Assembly: GCA_021776615.1 (NCBI GenBank)
Contig: JAJFFO010000002.1
Coordinates: 1-64,000 of the forward strand
Origin: Robiginitomaculum sp.
GTDB lineage: Bacteria > Pseudomonadota > Alphaproteobacteria > Caulobacterales > Maricaulaceae
Direction: 5' to 3'
DNA: 64,000 nt
The notes beneath the pieces are model-generated. The model did not search any database. It was not told the DNA's origin and saw only the letters and a program-made list of their open reading frames with translations. Position numbers and translations under genes: made by a program. Of this stretch, positions 41,567 through 42,519 are shown one piece after another; position 1 is the stretch's first letter, and every line of letters begins with the position of its first letter.

Positions 41567-42124
41567 ATGCACGAGCAAATTCAAACCCTGGTGAACGGCT
41601 ATAATAGCGGCTTCGCCCTTTCCCCGCGCTCGCTTGAGCGCCTTGGCGGCGTGCATAAGGGTTTAGCCGCCATTGTCCGGCGTGCGATTTTACTAAGCGC
41701 GGTTGATTTTACCGTGCTTGAAGGCCGCCGCACATCGGCGCGGCAAAAATTACTGGTCGAGCAAGGGGCCAGCAATACCATGAATTCGCGCCATTTATCC
41801 GGCCATGCGGTCGATCTTGGTGCGTGGATTGGCGGCGCAGTGCGTTGGGACTGGCCGCTTTACGAGAAAATCAACCACGCCATGCAATTGGCCGCCGCAG
41901 AAGCCGGGGTGCACGTTGAGTGGGGCGGCGATTGGAAAAGTTTTCGCGATGGGCCGCACTTTCAACTGCCGTGGGCGGATTATCCTCTCCTTCGACAAGC
42001 TCAGGATGAGGAGGTTTGGGGCGTGGAAGCTCAGGATGAGGTTTGGGGCGAGGAAGTTCAGGACGAGGACGTGCGGAATGGAGAAGCTCAGGATTTGGAA
42101 AACCAGAATGATAGGGTGGTTTGA
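41567..42124 (+). CDS. M15-family peptidoglycan endopeptidase (endolysin-like)
   Basis: A 185-residue protein related to phage L-alanyl-D-glutamate endopeptidases and CwlK. Zinc ligands are recognisable in SRHLSGHAVDLGAW (His and Asp) and in WKSFRDGPHFQL (His). It lacks a signal peptide, as do phage endolysins that depend on a holin. After the catalytic domain (to about residue 140) the tail is a run of 9-10-residue acidic repeats (AQDEEVWGVE, AQDEVWGEE, VQDEDVRNGE) encoded by copies of a REP-like DNA element. ATG 41567 has AAGG 9 nt upstream; ATG 41558 is an alternative. Its stop overlaps the holin start. Confidence 0.85.
   Translation: MHEQIQTLVNGYNSGFALSPRSLERLGGVHKGLAAIVRRAILLSAVDFTVLEGRRTSARQKLLVEQGASNTMNSRHLSGHAVDLGAWIGGAVRWDWPLYEKINHAMQLAAAEAGVHVEWGGDWKSFRDGPHFQLPWADYPLLRQAQDEEVWGVEAQDEVWGEEVQDEDVRNGEAQDLENQNDRVV
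41987..42090 (+). repeat. In-frame REP-like repeats in the endolysin 3' end
   Basis: Four imperfect copies of about 27 bp built on GAAGCTCAGGATGAGG (copies around 41994, 42025, 42053 and 42083). The first is preceded by CTCCTTCGACAAGCTCAGG, a sequence that resembles widespread intergenic palindromic-type repeats of proteobacteria. The copies preserve reading frame and code for the acidic tail of the endolysin. Confidence 0.65.
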
Positions 42125-42519
42125 TGGGGATACTAAGCAGCATTATTGGCCCGCTTACCGGCATTATCGATAAAGCGGTGCCAGATGCGGATTTGCGCCG
42201 CGAGCTAATATTCAAAATCAATGCTATGGTGATTGAACAAGAGGGCAATCTGACCAATGCGGCGCGCGATGTTTTGGTTGCCGAAGCGCAAGGGGAGAGT
42301 TGGTTGCAGCGAAATTGGCGACCACTGACCATGCTGACCTTCGCCGCAATCATCGCCAATAATTACCTTATCGCGCCTTATGTACAGGCATTTGGCGGGG
42401 TGGCGGTGGTGCTGGAAATCCCCGACGGCATGTGGGGCCTCCTTACCATGGGCCTTGGCGGCTATGTTGTTGGTCGCACATTGGAGAAAACTGGCAGCCG
42501 TTTGCGGGTTGGGGGTTAG
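42124..42519 (+). CDS. Holin of the three-TM gene-transfer-release type
   Basis: A 131-residue protein resembling the GTA holin family (Holin of 3TMs, for gene-transfer release). An amphipathic N-terminal region (SSIIGPLTGIIDKAVPDADL) is followed by the diagnostic SWLQRNWRPLTMLTFAAIIA, a second hydrophobic segment (YVQAFGGVAVVLEI) and a third (GMWGLLTMGLGGYVVGRTLE) with a basic tail. It would form the inner-membrane hole for the adjacent endolysin. It starts on the last base of the endolysin stop (TGATG). Confidence 0.82.
   Translation: MGILSSIIGPLTGIIDKAVPDADLRRELIFKINAMVIEQEGNLTNAARDVLVAEAQGESWLQRNWRPLTMLTFAAIIANNYLIAPYVQAFGGVAVVLEIPDGMWGLLTMGLGGYVVGRTLEKTGSRLRVGG

Follow-up and report, generated by a model that had tools for sequence, protein, structure and literature searches.

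Probable origin of the C-terminal tail of a Robiginitomaculum endolysin from a dispersed palindromic repeat

Introduction

In Rickettsia, palindromic elements (RPEs) are found in frame within proteins (Ogata et al., 2000, 2002; PMC10969869, PMC3767692). The locus described here resembles them, as far as those accounts go, in that palindromic repeats lie in frame within unrelated proteins, orthologues share the site of the repeat, different groups of element occur close together at one gene, and placement is exposed and outside the core. By the same description RPEs are set apart as elements of ~100-150 bp of the Rickettsiales, whereas the unit here is 26 bp long, occurs singly or as an inverted pair and belongs to the Maricaulales. 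It is also unlike the RPEs, as there described, in that the repeat lies at the end of a gene which overlaps the start of the next.

Intragenic GTAG/CGTC REPs offer a second parallel (PMC3733652). They are likewise palindromes of 20-40 bp occurring as singles and dimers, and the same recB site is occupied in two Xanthomonas species. The repeats studied here differ from them in having neither a GTAG nor a CGTC tag in the consensus, in persisting over about ten species with turnover of the REP type, and in being read in two frames only.

The gene concerned is an endolysin gene followed by a holin gene. This arrangement is like that of the R. capsulatus GTA lysis pair rcc00555/rcc00556 (PMC3423380), which consists of a lytic enzyme gene and a holin gene. 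C. crescentus is without such a lysis pair (PMC9632790, PMC13236601). Our literature search yielded no paper containing the repeat sequence or its peptides and, as far as we could find, protein-coding palindromes are known for Rickettsia and have not been reported for Robiginitomaculum-like bacteria. The new elements here are that such palindromes occur in this host group, that one gene end shows a series of states, that only two frames are used and, possibly, that the element serves twice at an overlapping junction.

Results

The endolysin gene and the layout of its tail

The window is the whole stretch of DNA analysed, 64,000 nt of a Robiginitomaculum genome (G000) that is a MAG of 2.16 Mb, 71% complete. 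There is an M15_4-type endolysin gene at 41567..42124 on the forward strand, encoding 185 aa and ending in a TGA stop at 42122-42124. The protein belongs to Pfam family PF13539 (Peptidase_M15_4; E=1.2e-11, 45.4 bits against a curated cut-off of 25) and matches PHROG 465 endolysin (E=6.1e-58); the gene is present in 16/18 genus genomes. Alignments place the conserved core at 41567..41986 (+), ending in ..PHFQLPWADYP, and most homologues without a tail stop at this point ('..PHFQLPWxxYP') or a few residues later. The 45 codons past the core (41987..42121, +) make up the REP-derived acidic C-terminal tail. AlphaFold2 returned a confident core and pLDDT values <50 for residues 144-168 and 170-182, and the tail is predicted to be disordered. 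Judging from the conservation of the frame and of the overlap with the next gene, it is probably translated.

The original prediction was that this C-terminus contains a REP-like element in frame, in four copies of ~27 bp. There is indeed a complete type-1 REP, CCTTCGACAAGCTCAGGATGAGG, at 41989..42011 (+), an exact match whose boundaries are taken from 52 copies and which is read as LRQAQDE. It is followed on the same strand by the partial tandem copies AAGCTCAGGATGAGG (42027..42041), AAGTTCAGGACGAGG (42054..42068) and AAGCTCAGGATTTGG (42084..42098). Four repeat starts (AAGYTCAGGAY, at 41997, 42027, 42054 and 42084) are thus present as predicted, but they are spaced 30/27/30 nt apart and just one of them, the first, belongs to a complete REP. 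Analysis of the tail with TRF gave 2.5 copies of ~27 bp (score 104), and AAGCTCAGGATGAGG with <=3 mismatches has five matches in the window against 1.07 expected, 4/5 of them inside the tail. The acidic repeat of 9-10 residues (AQDE-VWG-E) that had been noticed after the catalytic domain is read in frame as AQDEEVWGVE / AQDEVWGEE / VQDEDVRNGE / AQDLENQND. Because copies 2-4 are without the left arm of the REP, they most likely arose by partial tandem duplication of the right half of one REP, and four separate insertions are ruled out.

The REP family in the genome and the genus

A search outside the endolysin gene, as originally suggested, found exact copies of the REP in the same genome at C14:40576 and C21:464, and the element is abundant in relatives. 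The consensus of 52 distinct genus copies is a 26-bp unit, CATCCTTCGACAAGCTCAGGATGAGG, with a 6-bp stem (CATCCT/AGGATG) and no conserved flank. In the general sense it is a REP, being a short palindrome with up to 112 copies per genome, and ~80% of 165 examined copies lie outside a supported coding frame. Many forward/reverse pairs are found 36-77 bp apart, as in BIMEs. The consensus contains neither a GTAG nor a CGTC tag, so the element is not of the GTAG/RAYT type by its tag. Counting with <=2 mismatches gave 0-112 copies per genome across the genus: tailed species have 4-112, the tail-less sister clade has 0-3 and the tail-less species G010 has 7. The reversed-pattern control gave 0 in every genome. 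Outside the genus the REP is scattered (13/141 other sampled genomes of the class). Phages are ruled out as its main carriers, since 2.9 million viral contigs held only 20 stretches with a REP. Y1_Tnp is present in 6/18 genus genomes, which are incomplete MAGs. A RAYT was considered as the mover of the REP, but no RAYT/Y1 transposase was found in the 71% complete G000 or in several REP-rich relatives, among them G017 and G002, which is a point against the insertion proposed below. A second dispersed inverted repeat (CCCCTCATCCCGACCTTCTCCC...GGGAGAAGG) was seen in the same genome (L013, L017, L019, L020).

Other translated copies of the REP

The context of REP copies was read from sampled genome stretches, with genes identified from simple scores of the reading frames. 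By hexamer score, 33/165 distinct copies lie in genuine-looking reading frames, leaving out four one-sided cases in which the REP precedes a likely start; the 165 take in most of the copies of G007 and G002, many of those of G005 and a few from other genomes. The REP is read as (L)RQAQDE in 20 of these coding copies and in reverse as PHPELVE in 13, and the open frames FDKLRMR and LILSLSK are used by none of the 33. With a chance of one half each, such a restriction to two frames has by simple arithmetic a probability of 0.016 for six families or 0.002 for nine separate elements, REP copies inside one family being non-independent.

The six families with coding REPs comprise the endolysin and a GNAT protein (both at the C-terminus), PDH E2, a lipoyl-bearing PDH E1beta and a second E2 (all three in linkers), and a TM-TPR family, in which the REP comes right after the TM helix. 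The PDH E2 linker differs among species, some having a REP and others none. In mode of action the element therefore resembles the protein-coding palindromes of Rickettsia, as it is read in frame within a number of genuine proteins that are unrelated to one another. The original view of the endolysin as a case of a noncoding repeat made coding holds, but the endolysin is not unique, as several proteins of the genus contain translated REPs.

Lipoyl-enzyme linkers with in-frame REPs are found at L313:1534-2787, L078:1205-2506, L353:1780-3069, L372:1698-2972 and L368:1003-2397. Beside the REPs these linkers also carry the repeat peptide PSPQGEG / GGEGRGEG, apparently from another family of translated repeats. 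The TM-TPR genes are often in tandem, and many paralogues carry a REP or REP pair (ILRQAQDE...PHPELVEG) after the TM helix (L314, L326, L328, L368, L381, L382, L059 and L074). The GNAT acetyltransferase at L358:1477-2043 ends in LHPELVEG, a second protein C-terminus formed by a REP.

The endolysin/holin junction in relatives

At the same place, where the endolysin core gives way to the holin start, an in-frame REP is present in 10/11 clade-B species, G000 included, although some are degenerate. A single unit, decayed to varying extent, is found in G007, G017, G003, G001 and G009; in G009 only the end of the tail is REP-like. G005 and G004 carry composite tails in which two type-1 REPs flank an inverted element of a third kind (read PHGE-VEP). 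In G012 and G002 it is formed by a second REP type that is also dispersed in their genomes; the peptide is ILHPSRxPSVAPQDE, and the type-2 REP is preceded by ATCCTTC, the leftover left end of a type-1 unit. Tail length differs among species. There is no tail in G010 or in the five sister-clade species.

Among 160 further loci in other genomes or in viral contigs there were nine tailed Robiginitomaculum genes, three unreadable loci and 148 genes without a REP tail. Most of the 148 end 7-16 residues past the last active-site His, and 13 bear other, unrelated extensions. On the comparison originally suggested, the tail is absent outside the tailed species, in these 148 homologues, and variable within the tailed clade, and this survey rules it out as an old conserved domain. 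The pattern originally named as a refutation, in which distant homologues would share the acidic tail but encode it with unrelated codons and the element would have no copies elsewhere, was not seen. Together, the dispersed copies and the absence of the tail from the 148 homologues support the view that a noncoding repeat was turned into coding sequence.

In trees of a GTA protein, of methylmalonyl-CoA mutase with serine dehydratase and, with weaker support, of the lysis pair, G010 falls among the tailed species. In the same trees G012 and G002 group with G007 or within its group, beside a type-1 species. G010 and the tailed species have a common gene neighbourhood where this is visible, and the sister-clade pair is located elsewhere. 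Where seen in the tailed clade, the lysis pair adjoins methylmalonyl-CoA mutase genes (gene names by sequence reading). In the tail-less sister species G015 (C12) and G016 (C196) a single contig holds both the endolysin gene and the GTA TIM-barrel gene, ~22-25 kb apart.

Codon conservation and the age of the proposed insertion

Core dS between tailed species is mostly 1-2.5, which is close to saturation for synonymous sites; where the core residue is the same, about half of the codons are identical. In G000, G004, G005, G007 and G017, 6/7 REP codons are exactly shared, compared with 12/69 codons of the conserved core that are identical in all five (P ~2e-4, which is indicative as the five were picked for an intact REP). 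Near-saturated core dS together with shared REP codons suggests that the dispersed copies have refreshed the tail or that it was inserted anew.

The near-identity of REP codons despite high core dS could also mean that REPs inserted repeatedly and independently at a hotspot, instead of one old insertion having been refreshed. The occupation of this site by another REP type, the G010 junction AAATGAGC, which resembles the ancestral junction, and comparable sharing of sites in PDH-E2 linkers and TM-TPR proteins all agree with this. However, G004 and G005 have a similar composite layout, the type-2 tails retain a type-1 left end, the degenerate tails of early branches (G001, G009) suit an old event, and no target motif was found. 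We regard repeated insertion as possible but clearly the less probable course.

The holin start and the GTA context

The holin gene (GTA_holin_3TM; 42124..42519, +) matches PF11351 (E=2.1e-15) and PHROG 3427 holin, and its ATG overlaps the endolysin stop (TGATG). Overlaps of such kinds accompany translational coupling (PMC12548453). The overlap is ATGA in tail-less species and TAATG or TGATG in tailed species. A GTA TIM-barrel gene family is present in 18/18 genus genomes, and the PF11351 holin adjoins the endolysin in genomes that also hold a GTA cluster gene. Since the TIM-barrel family is found in all 18, the endolysin/holin pair is plausibly a GTA lysis module.

The 20 nt 5' of the holin ATG (42104..42123, +) contain a Shine-Dalgarno-like stretch, GATAGGGTGG, with a dG of -8.2, which is unremarkable as 20% of shuffles reach it. 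In most tailed species REP bases are part of this stretch, the REP end GGATGAGG contributing, and GGATGAGG(GGG/AGG) sits 8-12 nt before the ATG. Over these 20 nt the tailed species pair with the anti-SD at -8.2 to -12.7 kcal/mol, compared with -5.2 to -6.1 for the sister clade and -10.2 for the tail-less G010; when set against shuffled sequence, the pairing is strong in G002, G003, G009 and G012.

These data raise the question of whether the REP acts at the nucleotide level only, its RNA setting the translation of the holin through a Shine-Dalgarno sequence and/or a hairpin, with the peptide as a by-product. The placement of GGATGAGG in most tailed species, the strongest anti-SD pairing among the compared species (-12.7 kcal/mol) and the same synonymous codons kept in five species are consistent with this. 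Nevertheless, we consider it rather improbable: G010 and the sister clade do without a REP, the Shine-Dalgarno stretch of the window lies outside any whole REP, and coding REPs in the linkers of other genes have no start codon downstream. A Shine-Dalgarno sequence supplied by the REP may be a reason why insertion at the junction was tolerated, rather than proof of function.

Possible selection on the tail peptide

The tail of G001 differs from the REP consensus by five synonymous changes to one nonsynonymous (P 0.007 against neutrality), and there is no synonymous excess in the tails of G003 and G009. Among these three decayed tails a signal of selection on the peptide is therefore seen in G001 only. 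An acidic repeat peptide co-opted and held by selection, for example in restraining or timing the endolysin or in binding the cell envelope, would fit the G001 result, the persistence of the tail in 10/11 species across core dS mostly >1 and the tandem amplification of the acidic motif in G000. It is unlikely, however, given that G010 is tail-less, that G003 and G009 show no such excess, that length and sequence vary freely, with a different peptide in type-2 tails, and that the same peptide is found in unrelated proteins.

Finally, although the later three copies alone could be a plain minisatellite, the idea that the tail is just chance low-complexity sequence or a common tandem repeat with no relation to REPs is refuted by 23 bp that match a dispersed family exactly and have exact copies elsewhere, by zero control hits and by site-specific REPs at the orthologous place in relatives.

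Discussion

Taken together, the data suggest that a REP probably inserted at the endolysin/holin junction in the ancestor of the clade and became coding, with later turnover and refreshment or re-insertion. Observed are the identity of the REP, its frame, its conserved site, its variation, its presence or absence among species, the predicted disorder, and further coding copies confined to those two frames; from these we infer insertion and conversion as the process behind the tail. A dispersed REP-like element would have inserted, in the ancestor of one clade, between the last core codons of the endolysin and the overlapping holin start. Insertion would have displaced the old stop, and the REP would have become coding in the frame ILRQAQDE, giving a hydrophilic, acidic and disordered tail past the folded domain. 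Later turnover at the site may have included partial tandem duplication (in G000), replacement by a second REP type (in two species), formation of composite clusters (in two) and absence of the tail (in one). The REP family of the genome may have refreshed or re-inserted the tail in several species. Three features may have made the tail tolerable: it forms a disordered end, the TAATG/TGATG overlap persists, and the purine-rich GGATGAGG end of the REP can be part of the holin ribosome-binding site.

A broader proposal, which we put forward tentatively and think less likely than the origin above, is that the REPs of the genus are a standing source of protein sequence, entering disordered linkers and C-termini in just two of the four open frames and being homogenised by the dispersed copies while translated, with one element of the lysis operon serving as both endolysin tail and holin ribosome-binding site.

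For annotators these results are a warning that LRQAQDE and HPELVEG peptides are translations of REPs. They extend protein-coding palindromes from the Rickettsiales to another alphaproteobacterial order, the Maricaulales. At one orthologous site the species form a replicated natural series, in which the repeat is absent, single, of a second type, composite, in tandem or missing again, and which traces the passage of a noncoding mobile repeat into protein; this makes it testable whether REP peptides are tolerated passengers or working parts.
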